Source: Levilactobacillus lindianensis (lineage in GTDB: Bacteria; Bacillota; Bacilli; Lactobacillales; Lactobacillaceae). Taken from it: a stretch of DNA of 38,109 bases. Position 1 is the stretch's first letter. Every line of letters starts with the position of its first letter. Positions 10,661 to 27,018 of the stretch are shown piece after piece. The translations under genes were made by a program, and so were the position numbers. Location: NCBI RefSeq assembly GCF_003946095.1, contig NZ_RHOD01000019.1, positions 1 through 38,109 of the forward strand, given 5' to 3'. The notes under the pieces were generated by a model. The model saw nothing but the letters and a program-made list of their open reading frames with translations. It was not told where the DNA came from and did not search any database.

Positions 10661-12517
10661 ATGGATCAATTTTCTCTATTAATTATTTTAACCGCAGCAC
10701 TGATTACCCCATTAGTCATGGCGAAGTTTAAGCTGACCGTCTTACCCACGGCGGTCGTCGAAATTCTAGTCGGCATCCTACTGGGACCGAGTATCCTCAA
10801 TCTGGTGCACGCCAATACAACCCTAAATTTACTGTCGAACACCGGGGTCATCTTCCTGATGTTTCTGAGTGGGATGGAGATTGATTTCAGTCTCTTCAAC
10901 CGTCGCAAACAGCCACAGACCCCATTGGCCGCCAAGGTGGCAGGCAGTGCGCCAAAATACTCACCGGTTTTTATCGCCATCAGTAGTTACGCGGCGATTG
11001 CCGGCAGTGCACTGTTACTGGGCTTTATCTGCCGGTGGACCGGGTTATTCAAGGACCCTTGGCTCGCTGCCATTATCTTCATGACCATTTCTCTCGGTAT
11101 CGTCATCGCGACGCTCAAGGAAAAGGAACTCCTCAGCAAACCCTTCGGTCAAACCGTGCTACTGATCGCGGCTCTGGGGGAAATCATCCCCCTGTTTGCC
11201 CTGACCATCTACGCGTCAATCTTTGGCAAGGGAGGAAAATCCCTGTGGTTGCTGCTCCTAGTCTTCTTGGCTGCGGGAATTCTCTTCCGCCGGTTCAAGC
11301 CCTTCTTTACCTTCTTTGAGGGTATCAACAAGTCTACCACTCAACTGGATATTCGTCTGGCGTTCTTCCTGATCTTTAGCATGGTCGTCATCGCTGAATC
11401 CGTGGGCGCCGAGGGAATTCTCGGGGCCTTCGTGGCCGGAATTGTCATGAAGCTCCTGCAACCACAAGAAGACACTCGGACACGCTTGGATGGGATCGGC
11501 TACGGCTTCTTCATTCCCATCTTCTTCATGATGAGTGGGGCCGGTCTGAACCTGCGAACGTTACTGGCTTCACCATCCACGCTACTGCTGATTCCGGCCT
11601 TCTTCGCTGCCTACCTCTTGGCCAAAGCCGGTGTTTATTTCTGCTTACGCTTGCGATTCAAACGCGGTAATGCCTTTGCCGGAATGGCCATCAACAGTGC
11701 CACCATCACGATGGTTCTGGCTGTCCTGCAAGTAGCGAAAACCATGAAGGTCGTCACCACCCAACAGTCTGGGGCCTTCCTATTAGCTGCCATCTTGACC
11801 TGTGTTCTCGGACCCTTGTTGTTTAATACCGGTTACACCGCCGAGGCCGAGGATCTGAAGAGATCCACGGTTCACTTCATCGGAACCAACCTGCTCACCG
11901 TGCCCGTGGCGCAACAATTGACTCAAGACCGATATGACATCACCATGTATACCAACAAGGAAACAAACTTCAAGACCTACAACTCCGAGGTCAACGTTCA
12001 CCTGTTGGACTCACTCGAAACGCAATACGTTGAGGACCAGGACGCCTTCGATGCCGACATCGTGGTCTTAGGTCACCTCAACGCCACCAAGAATTACGAG
12101 TTGGCCAAATCTGCTAAAACCTATGGTGTCAACCGCGTCATCGTGCGCTTCGAGGATCGCAACGTCCTCGATGAACGGGAAGACGAACTCAAGGAACTAG
12201 GCATTGAAGTCTACAACACGCCAAACGTTAACATTGCCATGCTCCGCAGCCTGATCGAAGCCCCAACGACCCTGCGTCTATTGACGTCATCCACCTCAGC
12301 CGTCTACGAAGTTGCCCTGCGCAACCGGCGTTACACCGATCAGGCCATCCGCAGCTTGCCATTCGTTGGCCATATCACCATCAGTCAGATCTTCCGCAAT
12401 GGCCACTTTGTCCGGCCAACCGGTGCCACCACCTTGAAATTTAACGACCGCATCATCTTCACCAGCAGTCCCGAGACGGCTCGTGAAATTCGGCGCGAAC
12501 TAGGCATTCTCAACTAG
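10661..12517 (+). CDS. CPA2-family cation/proton antiporter with C-terminal RCK domain
   Basis: This encodes 618 residues. About 12 to 13 hydrophobic segments fill residues 1-385, with family blocks LTVLPTAVVEILVGILLGPS and LMFLSGMEIDFSLF near the start. The C-terminal part is cytosolic: an RCK_N/TrkA-N-like Rossmann domain (HFIGTNLLTVPVAQQL, then DADIVVLGHL) and a TrkA_C-like end (LRSLPFVGHITISQIFRNG, TLKFNDRIIFTSSPE). Such proteins exchange Na+ or K+ for H+ under control of a ligand bound to the RCK domain; which ion is moved here cannot be read. The start is one of two tandem ATGs (10658, 10661) after GGAGGTG at 10649; the second has the better spacing. A phosphatase gene follows 42 bp downstream. 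Confidence 0.92.
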   Translation: MDQFSLLIILTAALITPLVMAKFKLTVLPTAVVEILVGILLGPSILNLVHANTTLNLLSNTGVIFLMFLSGMEIDFSLFNRRKQPQTPLAAKVAGSAPKYSPVFIAISSYAAIAGSALLLGFICRWTGLFKDPWLAAIIFMTISLGIVIATLKEKELLSKPFGQTVLLIAALGEIIPLFALTIYASIFGKGGKSLWLLLLVFLAAGILFRRFKPFFTFFEGINKSTTQLDIRLAFFLIFSMVVIAESVGAEGILGAFVAGIVMKLLQPQEDTRTRLDGIGYGFFIPIFFMMSGAGLNLRTLLASPSTLLLIPAFFAAYLLAKAGVYFCLRLRFKRGNAFAGMAINSATITMVLAVLQVAKTMKVVTTQQSGAFLLAAILTCVLGPLLFNTGYTAEAEDLKRSTVHFIGTNLLTVPVAQQLTQDRYDITMYTNKETNFKTYNSEVNVHLLDSLETQYVEDQDAFDADIVVLGHLNATKNYELAKSAKTYGVNRVIVRFEDRNVLDEREDELKELGIEVYNTPNVNIAMLRSLIEAPTTLRLLTSSTSAVYEVALRNRRYTDQAIRSLPFVGHITISQIFRNGHFVRPTGATTLKFNDRIIFTSSPETAREIRRELGILN

Positions 12518-12559: not shown

Positions 12560-13219
12560 ATGGCGACAGTTGAAATCTATTTGGTCCGTCACGGCCAAAC
12601 CTATCTGAACAAGTACCACCGCATCCAAGGATGGTCCGACTCCCCACTCACGGAAAAGGGTATTTTGGATGCCCAGAACGCTGGTAAACGACTCGCTAAG
12701 GTGCCTTTCGCGGCGGCTTACGCTAGCGACACCACCCGGGCCAGCAATACCGCCAAGGAGATCCTGGCGCGCAATGTCAGTGCCCTCGACCAGCCCACTA
12801 TCATGCCAGCCTTTCGGGAAGAGAACTTCGGCTTCTTCGAAGGACTCGATACCAGCCTCACTTGGCATACGTTGGGCAGTCCCAAGGGACTCGATGACTT
12901 TAACCAGATGATTGCTAGTCTCACCATCGAGAAAACCAAGGACCTCTTCAAGGCCCATGACCCTTACGGTGACGCCGAAGACAACCAAGAATACTGGGCT
13001 CGATTACAACCTGGTCTGGACCATGTCGTGGCCAATGCTAGTGACGGTGACCGTGTCCTGATCGCCACCCACAGTACGACGATTCGGAGCATTGTGTCCA
13101 AGTTCTCCGACGTCGATGTCTCGGTTCCCGTGGAAAATGGCAGCATTACCAAGTTGACCGTGACCGACGGCAAGTACCGTGTCGACGACTATAACAATAC
13201 TGAAGGACCGATTGCTTAG
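12560..13219 (+). CDS. Histidine phosphatase family protein (phosphoglycerate mutase-like)
   Basis: This encodes 219 residues. The catalytic RHG motif is at residues 10-12 (LVRHGQTYLN), followed by the usual QGWSDSPLTEKG, the AYASDTTRASNTA block, a Glu-rich REENFGFFEG segment, and the second catalytic His in THSTTIRSI. This branch of the histidine phosphatase superfamily removes phosphate from small metabolites through a phosphohistidine; the true substrate is not evident, and a glycolytic mutase role is unlikely from the sequence type. A clear AAAGGAGAG site precedes ATG. It is probably co-transcribed with the antiporter. After the stop come a truncated structured repeat and a strong terminator. 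Confidence 0.92.
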   Translation: MATVEIYLVRHGQTYLNKYHRIQGWSDSPLTEKGILDAQNAGKRLAKVPFAAAYASDTTRASNTAKEILARNVSALDQPTIMPAFREENFGFFEGLDTSLTWHTLGSPKGLDDFNQMIASLTIEKTKDLFKAHDPYGDAEDNQEYWARLQPGLDHVVANASDGDRVLIATHSTTIRSIVSKFSDVDVSVPVENGSITKLTVTDGKYRVDDYNNTEGPIA

Positions 13220-13231
13220 TTAGGTCTAACC

Positions 13232-13276
13232 GGTCGCCTGCGGCTGGCTCCATCTCTGGTCTCCTCCGGCTAAGAT
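13232..13276 (+). repeat. Internally deleted copy (copy C) of the structured intergenic repeat
   Basis: GGTCGCCTGCGGCTG is identical to the start of copy B (26292 leftward), and CTCCTCCGGCTAAGAT to its end (26117 to 26102). The roughly 146 bp between two CAGCCG copies in B (26132-26137 and 26278-26283) are absent here. What remains is the two small GCC/GGC hairpins at the ends plus one arm of the closing stem (CATCTCTGG against CATCCCTGG). Confidence 0.75.
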
Positions 13277-24352: not shown

Positions 24353-25639
24353 ATGGAAGAAACCCCACGAACACCCGTCATTACGATTGGATTAAACGCT
24401 GGTCAGGCCACGTTTGATTACTCGATGACGGAACTTAAAAACTTGGTCGAAGCCAACAACATGACGGTGGTTGAGGAGATTCAACAATCACTCACCAAAC
24501 CAAATCCCGGAACTTATTTCGGGACTGGCAAAGTTGAAGAATTGGCAACGATCGTGGCGGATGACGAAGTCAATGTCATCATCGTCAATGACGAACTGAC
24601 CCCAAGTCAGATTCGTAACTTGGAGAATGGAACCAAGGCCCGGATCATTGACCGGACCGGCCTTATCCTCGAAATCTTCGCTAACCGGGCCCAGTCTCGT
24701 GAAGCCAAACTTCAGGTGCAATTGGCTATGCTCCAATACCAATTGCCTCGCCTGCACACGAGCGCCTCACAGCGACTGGACCAACAGACCGGTAGCGGTG
24801 GCGGTGGTGGTTTCACCAACCGTGGTTCCGGTGAATCTCAGACTGAAATGAGCCGGCGGACCATTCAACGGTCCATCAACCACGTCAACCACGAACTCAA
24901 GGAAATCAACCAGGCCGCTGCGACTCAGCGCCAACAGCGGGAACGTAATCAACTCCCTTCTGTCGCCCTGGTCGGCTATACCAACGCCGGTAAATCAACG
25001 TTGATGAATGCCCTGGTTCGCAAATTTGGTAAGAACGAAGACAAACAGGTCTTCGTCAAGGACATGCTGTTCGCCACGCTAGATACCAGTGTGCGGCAGC
25101 TGGTCTTCCCCGACCAAAAGAAAATGTTGCTGAGTGATACCGTTGGATTCGTTAGTCAGTTGCCAACACAACTGGTCAAGGCCTTCCGTTCAACGCTGGC
25201 TGAAGCTGCCAATGCCGACCTCTTGATTCAGGTCGTCGATTACGCCGATACCAACAAGGAAGCCATGATGGCCACGACCGAGAAGACTTTAATGGACATT
25301 GGTGTGACCGACGTGCCCATGATTACCGTCTTCAACAAGGCCGACTTGACCGAAGCCACCTACCCAACCCGGGCCGCCGACCAATTGGTTCTTTCCGCTC
25401 TGGATGACGACTCACTGGACCTGTTAGTTCAGGCGATCAAAGAGAAAGTCTTCCACAACTACGTCACAGCCAACTTCCTCATCCCCTTCTCTGAGGGTGA
25501 AGTGGTCTCCTATCTCAACGAAAACGCGCACGTTTTGAGTACGGACTACGTTGCGGATGGAACTGCCCTCAAGGTTGAACTCCAACAAGCCGACTTTGAG
25601 CGTTTCAAGCAGTTCGTCGTTACGAAAGAACATAGCTAA
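24353..25639 (+). CDS. hflX: GTPase HflX (ribosome-associated)
   Basis: This encodes 428 residues. The N-terminal HflX domain has the typical PGTYFGTGKVEELA block and SQRLDQQTGSGGGGGFTNRG, the glycine-rich linker of the family. The G domain follows: G1 GYTNAGKST (near residue 205), G3 SDTVGFVSQLP, G4 NKADL, G5-like LSALDDDS. HflX binds the 50S subunit and splits or rescues stalled ribosomes after stress such as heat or antibiotics. ATG follows GAGGAGG. It is monocistronic, with its own terminator. Confidence 0.96.
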   Translation: MEETPRTPVITIGLNAGQATFDYSMTELKNLVEANNMTVVEEIQQSLTKPNPGTYFGTGKVEELATIVADDEVNVIIVNDELTPSQIRNLENGTKARIIDRTGLILEIFANRAQSREAKLQVQLAMLQYQLPRLHTSASQRLDQQTGSGGGGGFTNRGSGESQTEMSRRTIQRSINHVNHELKEINQAAATQRQQRERNQLPSVALVGYTNAGKSTLMNALVRKFGKNEDKQVFVKDMLFATLDTSVRQLVFPDQKKMLLSDTVGFVSQLPTQLVKAFRSTLAEAANADLLIQVVDYADTNKEAMMATTEKTLMDIGVTDVPMITVFNKADLTEATYPTRAADQLVLSALDDDSLDLLVQAIKEKVFHNYVTANFLIPFSEGEVVSYLNENAHVLSTDYVADGTALKVELQQADFERFKQFVVTKEHS

Positions 25640-25652
25640 ACTTGATTTTATG

Positions 25653-25685
25653 AGCCATCCTGGCACTCGCTAGGATGGCTTTTCT
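25653..25685 (+). terminator. Terminator of hflX
   Basis: AGCCATCCT and AGGATGGCT form a 9-bp stem around a 10-base loop, followed by TTTTCTT, 13 bp after the stop. Confidence 0.88.
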
Positions 25686-25760
25686 TGTTCTCAGTTCCGT
25701 TTAGGGATGTACTAAAACGATTAGTCTATCTTCAAGATTCGGCAACTGTGGCGGAACCAC

Positions 25761-25927
25761 TCGCCTTACCGGCCGGTAGCTAGGGGCTGGAACGGTGCGA
25801 ACACAACTTGAAGCCTCGAAGCCTACGAGTCTTCAAGCTTGGTTTTCTCCTAAGCCAGCGAGAAGATCACTCACTGACTAAGGAGAACGACGCCTGAGCC
25901 CCTATCTGCCAGCCTCACGGCTTAGAT
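25761..25927 (+). repeat. Structured intergenic element, copy A
   Basis: This is a non-coding, GC-rich block with ordered pairings. There is a small GCC/GGC hairpin at each end (25763-25773 and AGCC/GGCT at 25911-25922) and a closing stem TAGGGGCT (25781-25788) with AGCCCCTA (25897-25904). Inside, hairpin H1 is 25806-25838 (CTTGAAG with CTTCAAG, then CTCG with CGAG). Hairpin H2 is 25845-25887 (TTCTCCT with AGGAGAA, an internal loop AAGC/ACTA, then CAGCGAG with CTCACTG). The tail is GGCTTAGAT. Copy B on the other strand has the same order and tail. No promoter is evident. It could be a structured RNA or a miniature mobile repeat. Confidence 0.7.
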
Positions 25928-26101
25928 GGACCCACCAGGTCAACTTCAGGAGGAAGCCCTTGAAGTCAGTCATTGTGAAAGTTGAAGAACAGTCAAGTAA
26001 TCCTCTCATAACCTAATTGCCAACAATTCACGCCACCCAGCTACCTGAATGTTTAAAAAAATAGCCTCGTTGCCTTTTATTCTTTGTCGCAGTAACGATA
26101 A
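25928..26101. other. Spacer between structured repeats A and B
   Basis: It contains one more inverted repeat, ACTTCA (25942-25947) with TGAAGT (25961-25966), with an outer CAACTT/AAGTTG pairing reaching about 25984. No coding frame or promoter is convincing. Confidence 0.4.
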
Positions 26102-26292
26102 ATCTTAGCCGGAGGAGGCCAGGGATGGATCCAGCCGTGACGGTGGTGTTAGACCGAGTGCCCCTTTCTCGGCCTTACACCACCGGCGACTTTGAAGACC
26201 CGTGCCTCTGGCGGGGCTTCAAATCGAGCGAGAAGCCCACAGGGCTGAAGCGTCCCCACAGCAGGCGTAATCCCTGGCAGCCGCAGGCGACC
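26102..26292 (-). repeat. Structured intergenic element, copy B
   Basis: Read on the minus strand it opens GGTCGCCTGCGGCTG and closes CTCCTCCGGCTAAGAT. The closing stem is CCAGGGAT (26119-26126) with ATCCCTGG (26270-26277). Inside, in order, are a hairpin AGCCC/GGGCT (26234-26246) absent from copy A, H1 (26191-26223: TTTGAAG with CTTCAAA, then CCCG with CGGG), and H2 (26141-26185: a 9-bp perfect CGGTGGTGT stem, internal loop AAGG/TCTA, then CCGAG with CTCGG). H1 and H2 match copy A in layout with compensatory base changes. It lies just beyond the terminator of the Gln-type operon. Confidence 0.72.
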
Positions 26293-26311: not shown

Positions 26312-26344
26312 AAAAAAAACGCACCGAAAGTTCAATCGGTGCGT
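26312..26344 (-). terminator. Terminator of the glutamine-type ABC operon
   Basis: On the minus strand ACGCACCGA and TCGGTGCGT form a 9-bp perfect stem around an 8-base loop, and TTTTTTT follows, about 18 bp after the last permease gene. Confidence 0.9.
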
Positions 26345-26361
26345 CGTTTCAAGTTCAAGTA

Positions 26362-27018
26362 TTAAGCCTGACGCTTTTCCAAGTGGCGTGCCAGTAATGA
26401 CAACAGGTAACAAACCACAAAGTACATCGCCGCAATGGCCACGAACATTGGAATAATGTAGTTGGTGTTCTGCCCATAAATAATCTGGGAACGGAACAAC
26501 ATTTCTGGCAAGAGAATAATCGTCGCTAACGACGTATCCTTAACCAGCGAAATGAATTGGCTCACAATTGCCGGGATCATCTTCACCAAAGCTTGTGGCA
26601 AGACGATATACCAGAGTCCTTGCCAGTAGGTTAACCCATTGGCTCGAGCCCCTTCCATCTGGCCAGAATCTACGGCTTGAATCCCTGAACGAACAATTTC
26701 GGCCAACATTGTCGATTCGAAGATGGTCATAGCGAGAATTGCCGCTGGAATAATTTCCGGCTTAACCCCCAGATTAGGTAACCCGAAGTAAGTAAAGAAC
26801 AGAATCAAAATCAGTGGCAGGTTTCGAATCACATCGATCACGACGCCGACAATGGCAGAGACATACTTAATCTTGACGTAACGAATGACCCCTAGAATGG
26901 CTCCAATAATAAAGCTCCCGATGATGGAAATCACAGAGACTAGTAGCGTGATCCCCAGTCCGCCAAACAGATAGCGGAGGTTGTCAGGGGAGTAGGCGTT
27001 AATAAAGTTTTGTAGCAT
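26362..27018 (-). CDS. glnP: Glutamine-type amino acid ABC transporter permease
   Basis: This encodes 218 residues with five or so membrane segments. The EAA loop GQMEGARANGLTYWQGLWYI is typical of polar amino acid permeases of the HisM/GlnP type, and IRNLPLILILFFTYFGLP is the other family signature. It pairs with the next permease to form the channel. The gene order ATPase, binding protein, permease, permease equals the Bacillus glnQHMP arrangement. ATG; 15 bp after the preceding permease stop. The substrate could be Gln, Glu or Asp. Confidence 0.9.
   Translation of the reverse strand: MLQNFINAYSPDNLRYLFGGLGITLLVSVISIIGSFIIGAILGVIRYVKIKYVSAIVGVVIDVIRNLPLILILFFTYFGLPNLGVKPEIIPAAILAMTIFESTMLAEIVRSGIQAVDSGQMEGARANGLTYWQGLWYIVLPQALVKMIPAIVSQFISLVKDTSLATIILLPEMLFRSQIIYGQNTNYIIPMFVAIAAMYFVVCYLLSLLARHLEKRQA

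Follow-up and report, generated by a model that had tools for sequence, protein, structure and literature searches.

Facing, covarying intergenic modules of Lactobacillaceae as a possible folded element at the DNA level

Two structured elements face each other between two converging genes in the Levilactobacillus lindianensis stretch analysed here (contig NZ_RHOD01000019.1, positions 1 to 38,109; 38,109 nt, hereafter the window). An earlier note, made from the letters alone, described both copies, A and B, as one fold kept by compensatory base changes, which raises the question of what the shape is kept for: an RNA, the movement of the element, or a signal in the DNA itself. The reading that we favour, held at close to an even chance but just short of it, is that A and B, facing each other, form two arms of a non-autonomous repeat, a MITE-spread element that folds at the DNA level and is kept in intergenic regions of Lactobacillaceae.

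Two facing modules in the window

Modules A and B sit between the two genes, each behind a terminator-like hairpin. The features of the locus, together with a third, truncated copy elsewhere in the window, are as follows.

24353-25639, plus strand: HflX-like GTPase gene (Pfam; the name HflX is a reading of the Pfam domains)
25653-25688, plus strand: terminator-like hairpin (25653-25680) and T-rich stretch, 3' of the HflX-like GTPase gene and upstream of A
25762-25926, plus strand: module A, type I, about 165 nt, comprising 5' mini-hairpin, closing stem, H1, H2, second closing arm and 3' mini-hairpin
25763-25773, plus strand: 5' mini-hairpin of A, GCC ttacc GGC (read from the letters and folded)
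25771-25788, plus strand: closing stem of A, 5' arm (inverted-repeat helix)
25800-25844, plus strand: hairpin H1 of A, arms 25800-25821 and 25823-25844, GAAG-C-CTCG/CGAG-T-CTTC with the conserved C-T mismatch
25845-25887, plus strand: hairpin H2 of A, arms 25845-25862 and 25870-25887, with an A-A mismatch
25897-25914, plus strand: closing stem of A, 3' arm (inverted-repeat helix)
25912-25927, plus strand: 3' mini-hairpin of A, GCC tcac GGC (25912-25921), and tail GGCTTAGAT (letters and flank conservation)
25928-26105, no strand: spacer between the facing modules
26106-26291, minus strand: module B, type II, about 186 nt, facing A
26118-26126, minus strand: closing stem of B, 3' arm, paired with 26270-26278 (fold)
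26141-26185, minus strand: hairpin H2 of B, arms 26141-26158 and 26168-26185
26191-26223, minus strand: hairpin H1 of B, arms 26191-26202 and 26212-26223, GAAG-C-CCCG/CGGG-T-CTTC with the conserved C-T mismatch
26270-26288, minus strand: closing stem of B, 5' arm (26270-26278), and outer mini-hairpin (26280-26288)
26312-26349, minus strand: terminator-like hairpin (26314-26349) and T-run, 3' of the ABC permease gene and upstream of B
26362-27018, minus strand: ABC permease component gene (Pfam)
13232-13272, plus strand: third copy, an internally deleted B-module stub just 3' of the gene at 12560-13219

All helices of the earlier note are present, and the parts of A and B lie at the positions it claimed. 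B possesses an extra hairpin between the closing stem and H1 that A lacks, and its minus-strand tail reads GGCTAAGAT. The stub at 13232-13272 keeps the outer mini-hairpins and has lost the interior; it lies behind a histidine-phosphatase-family gene, and the syntenic place in genome G007 holds a B copy.

Both folds are confirmed as real and far from chance. A and B were folded as RNA with short flanks and compared with 200 shuffles each. A gave a z-score of -5.7 (0/200 shuffles as good), and B gave -3.4 on the strand read in the earlier note (hereafter the reader's strand; 1/200) and -4.4 on the other strand (0/200). The minimum energy of B as RNA is -94.7 on the reader's strand versus -93.3 on the other, against the general trend. 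As single-stranded DNA, both copies score better on the opposite strand, with -5.8 versus -3.8 for A and -5.0 versus -4.2 for B.

A superfamily of paired, covarying modules

A and B are members of one superfamily of 160-190-nt modules, whose type I (A-like) and type II (B-like) forms have layout and motifs in common. A model built from 21 type II copies recovers A at E 2.3e-7, so that A and B are related and not merely alike. Used as DNA queries, A and B found matches in 16 and 15 of 30 genomes, respectively, all of them Levilactobacillus (e.g. L. humaensis and L. andaensis). The type I model hit 18/18 Levilactobacillus genomes and 0/12 genomes from other families of the order; the type II model hit 28/151 Lactobacillaceae genomes in 9/40 genera, and its full-length matches beyond Levilactobacillus reached E values as low as 1.2e-30. 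Further genomic copies, for which the earlier note had proposed a search, are therefore many by DNA and model searches, across Levilactobacillus and other Lactobacillaceae genera. We sorted them into seven subfamilies, A to G. The type II model marks at least 69 places in the window's own genome, G000 (70 rows, one antisense to another), and there are at least 133 copies in G014, 147 in G003 and 31 in G012; these counts may be low, as candidates were scored in part (150 of 673 in G000).

No Rfam family matched over the modules at gathering scores, in agreement with the earlier note, which knew of no named RNA or repeat family with this layout. The sole gathering-level match was one tRNA elsewhere, and matches below threshold were to miRNA and snoRNA families, with a best E of 0.098. 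Among the titles and starts of abstracts listed by literature searches of open-access papers, none dealt with the module family.

Two copies alone are insufficient for the claim that covariation keeps the fold; many copies bear it out. In an alignment of 21 diverse type I copies, pairing holds in 95.9% of cells and two-sided changes affect 30/44 pairs, compared to 19.6 ± 2.0 in shuffles (0/500 as high). The 44 matches from other genera, in an alignment fitted to the model and including a weak antisense match, have 93.1% of cells paired and two-sided changes at 39/42 pairs, compared to 32.0 ± 1.6 (0/500 as high). Sliding the partners by one to three columns lowers the pairing to 31-49% in both sets. 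Almost no wobble intermediates accompany the compensated changes. The C-T mismatch of H1 is kept in 20/21, 21/21 and 39/42 sequences (the last from other genera, in which the stem pair near it takes all four Watson-Crick types). The H2 mismatch has A on either side in 21/21 type I copies and is kept in 18/21 type II copies; it is looser in other genera, where its two sides read A in 34 and 38 of the 44 rows, 42 of which have letters.

The modules are mostly arranged in facing pairs. Neighbours less than 600 nt apart face each other in 118 of 129 cases, counted over 176 stretches that partly overlap and are biased to hits. De-duplication left 335 full-length copies; 213 of them face a partner no more than 500 nt away, two have only another kind of neighbour within that distance, and 120 have no close neighbour. 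All 14 close pairs in other genera are facing (20 stretches from nine genomes and four genera; the count leaves out one weak antisense row that covers the same place in L315). In subfamily B, 121/162 modules come after a gene in sense orientation; the counts are more even for A (42/73), C (12/28), D (7/21) and F (15/23), with 0/4 for E. After frames covered at least 30% by copies were set aside, no copy was found inside a frame of at least 100 codons. The rows listed for G003 (54/95) and G014 (30/54) gave no replication-strand bias.

A link to terminators was considered and is weak, with a minority of copies near a T-run. In the 70 nt upstream, a T-run is present at 30/169 B, 5/77 A, 4/30 C, 6/24 D and 2/23 F copies, and in the 70 nt downstream at 9/169 B copies; the closeness to terminators seen in the window is therefore not general. 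Two pairs were suspected to be inverted between G000 and G007, which held for one only: the facing C/D pair at C5:15889-16298 of G000 (L116) has the inverted order at C5:10156-10562 of G007 (L254), with collinear flanks.

RNA or folded DNA

Covariation is usually read as evidence of a structured RNA. Real RNAs tolerate G-U pairs far better than A-C pairs. We counted GT against AC on the pairs common to the folds of both strands, in 264 sequences of subfamilies A, B, C, D and F (E and G, with four sequences each, were left out). GT:AC is 243:470 on the reader's strand and about 1.9:1 on the opposite strand, compared to 102:11 (about 9:1) for RNase P under the same procedure, the control being drawn from 30 of 41 Lactobacillaceae genomes where RNase P was found. 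These counts replaced a first version from folds of the sense strand only (559:506 in A, B, C, D and F; 415:43 for RNase P), which depends on the strand folded. The modules of other genera gave 38:51, and one-sided changes between orthologues comprise 29 GT and 36 AC. Two further controls, both selected for pairing, gave 28:0 (tRNAs, 18 genes) and 69:25 (145 terminator-like hairpins).

The consensus energy is lower on the opposite strand in six of seven subfamilies, G being the exception, and the energies of the two module strands are close, compared to -160.8 versus -114.0 for RNase P. A crude consensus scan of the 75-nt flanks found no enrichment of sigma70-type promoters in any orientation. 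A structured RNA in the orientation given in the earlier note is thus unlikely, since wobbles are not favoured, promoters are not enriched and the folds of the complementary strand are comparable or better. The strand signal is asymmetric, with AC exceeding GT about 2:1 on the reader's strand, and the opposite strand could be the working one, even as RNA. These data are best read as folding of the DNA itself, in which the opposite strand is perhaps preferred. Strong covariation without the wobble signature that RNase P has in the same bacterial family may therefore be a bacterial example of chromosomal DNA selected for its fold. Other RNA-like repeats could be re-sorted with the help of the same GT-to-AC count, made on the pairs that both strand folds have in common.

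Spread, constraint and rival readings

The repeated unit in G016 exceeds the A/B pair; it is about 615 bp long and ends in CTGAAGGTTGAAAG. Exact copies of this terminal inverted repeat, which lies outside the A/B pairs, occur in 6/18 Levilactobacillus genomes (49 in G016, 18 in G014, 8 in G017, 4 in G010, 3 in G002 and 2 in G009); one exact copy in another family is perhaps there by chance. Among 29 terminal-repeat loci read, the repeat lies about 50-112 nt outside the module in 21 and at other distances in three, and five have no module. Terminal repeats alone, which the earlier note had named as a possible explanation of the hairpins, therefore do not account for them. Both ends are present at 12 of the 29 loci, and these two-ended composites have exact target duplications of 7 bp in four cases and 8 bp in two, compared to 1/132 at 6 of 7 or better in a mixed-flank control. 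No transposase-sized frame was found between the ends in the 12 loci, where one frame of 116 codons runs over the modules (L279), and the search found no autonomous partner of the CTGAAGGTTGAAAG composites. By descent, the A/B pair is part of a MITE-type composite in some species, which is as far as the earlier idea of a mobilised element holds: the window's pair has no recognisable terminal repeat. Its own genome contains no exact CTGAAGGTTGAAAG, so that the pair would be an old remnant.

Five differences between G000 and G007, judged by eye, comprise one clean site without duplication, three sites with stubs and one complex case. The clean empty site, in G000, has no target duplication and is left unexplained by the MITE model. 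The Y1 transposase was considered as a partner and rejected, as its presence is not correlated with the elements: Y1_Tnp (PF01797) is found in 18/30 genomes and 12/18 Levilactobacillus genomes; G005, G006, G015 and the element-rich G002, G011 and G016 gave none.

Of 39 testable copies in G000, compared with part of G007, 28 have orthologues, six seem absent or changed and five fall outside the compared part. The orthologous modules are 93% identical and their flanks (60 nt on each side) 79%; differences amount to 177/3401 stem sites (5.2%), 176/1471 unpaired sites (12%) and 31% of fourfold sites (20,203 sites in 113 open frames). Both sides changed at 38 pairs, compared to 4.6 expected. Three divergent loci (C1:48449, 60796 and 61311) supply 26 of the 38; without them, 12 two-sided changes remain against about 1.7 expected by our own arithmetic, eight of them between two Watson-Crick pairs. 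Resident copies thus seem to be held by constraint, given the higher identity of modules than of flanks and the 31% difference at fourfold sites. Concerted evolution is an unlikely cause of this conservation, because most copies inside one genome are less alike than orthologues (mean 93%): the window's B is mostly 83-91% identical to other G000 copies, down to 76%, the exception being one F pair within a genome that is 97% alike.

Together, these data are compatible with the following scheme. Each arm, as DNA, would fold into a multi-branched cruciform built from the closing stem, H1 and H2, joined in type II by one further hairpin; mismatches are kept inside stems whose letters change. The composites may be, or may once have been, mobilised in trans by a transposase of the cut-and-paste type. 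Once a composite has inserted, a putative structure-specific DNA-binding protein or the DNA topology machinery would read the folded, mismatch-marked hairpins; modules between genes would be kept on account of that reading, and copies would be lost through deletions across hairpins that leave stubs. The analysis found neither such a transposase nor such a protein. A more far-reaching version is possible, though well short of an even chance: a folded-DNA signal, at tens to more than 100 copies per chromosome in many Lactobacillaceae species, in which selection on resident copies keeps the cruciform, the mismatches, the Watson-Crick-only compensation and the facing intergenic pairs. Such a signal would amount to a code written in DNA structure and recognised by a putative structure-specific DNA-binding protein; a MITE would have spread it, and it would have gained its use afterwards.

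The strand asymmetry bears on a rival in which the modules are transcribed into a structured RNA, either on the opposite strand or on both; transcription might, for instance, start in the spacer between two facing modules and run outward. The better single-stranded DNA folds of the window's copies on that strand, its lower consensus energy in most subfamilies, a GT:AC ratio nearer that of terminator-like hairpins and the conservation of some 20-25 nt beyond the 3' end in A and B all fit such an RNA; the ninefold GT excess of RNase P under the same procedure, the far larger energy difference between its strands and the flat sigma70 scan in every flank orientation make it unlikely. A purely selfish mobile element, whose folds serve transposition only and have no host role, would agree with the terminal inverted repeats and target duplications, the high copy number, the lack of copies inside frames under the limits given above and the decay by deletion. 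Drift would be expected of a copy that is of use only during transposition, yet resident orthologues have accumulated about one third of the divergence of their flanks and far less than that of fourfold sites, and two-sided changes are seen among copies that stayed where they were. The conservation therefore counts against the selfish reading, which we consider rather improbable.

Covariation could also arise by mutation, if hairpin-templated repair copied one arm onto the other without selection on the shape. The near lack of wobble intermediates and the hairpin-type deletions would suit this process; it should not slow substitution, however, and stems differ far less than fourfold sites, and it should erase mismatches such as the C-T of H1, which persists across genera, so that we regard it as very unlikely. 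Barely tenable, in our view, is a family of the REP/REPIN kind that moves by a Y1 (IS200/RAYT-type) transposase with single-stranded hairpins as its substrate. Such a family would lead one to expect intergenic hairpins that form inverted pairs, the one clean empty site without target duplication and the occurrence of Y1_Tnp in two thirds of the Levilactobacillus genomes, but Y1_Tnp goes unmatched in the element-rich genomes named above, REPs are much smaller than the modules, inspection by eye showed neither GTAG nor CGTC at module ends, and the composites carry target duplications.

The favoured reading, a MITE-spread element that folds as DNA, can be compared with known systems. The composites resemble MITEs in their length (about 420-620 bp), terminal inverted repeats and many intergenic copies; 6/12 of them have exact 7-8-bp target duplications, and in the loci read no frame of transposase size lies between the repeats. 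They differ in that two constrained, multi-branched modules, facing each other, take up most of the element; the modules are also found without terminal repeats and as singles. The bcr elements of the Bacillus cereus group (bcr1-bcr18) are, in the parts of the reports consulted, interspersed intergenic repeats with predicted structure, of which bcr1-bcr3 are described as MITE-like and bcr10 and bcr18 as likely RNA elements (PMC3446304, PMC2267715). The modules share with them the intergenic position and predicted structure, and bcr1 is of similar length; going by these partial descriptions, they are set apart by lineage, facing pairs and the absence of a wobble preference. REPs, as far as the source consulted in part describes them, are 20-40 bp long and tagged GTAG or CGTC, with GT pairing often observed, and REP, BIME and REPIN elements are likewise intergenic hairpins, often inverted dimers (PMC3733652); the modules are longer, at 160-190 nt, and multi-branched, do not favour GT and show no such tag by eye. 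By analogy, the modules may work like the attC sites of integrons, which part of one review presents as folded DNA with poor sequence conservation, in which unpaired bases matter, one strand is preferred, and R and L boxes flank the hairpin (PMC2727003). An integron integrase also belongs to attC sites; compared to them, the modules are not tied to a cassette array.

A few observations concern the distribution of repeats. Thirty of the 69 type II model places of G000 lie on one 157-kb contig (C1, L101-L108), compared to 4.7 expected. The same contig carries a separate repeat of about 125 nt (L103:5793-5917 and 11075-11208, corresponding to G000 C1:45793-45917 and 51075-51208), which has many matches on both strands in G003 and G014. 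A search of plasmids and phages with the window's A/B pair gave no match. With a pair from another genus as query, one module was matched on five plasmids. The module is carried by plasmids of the beer isolates Pediococcus damnosus and Loigolactobacillus backii (L335:4001-4202 and L336:2741-2942), and in both plasmids read, of the five matched, it lies 18 nt behind a MerR-type regulator gene.
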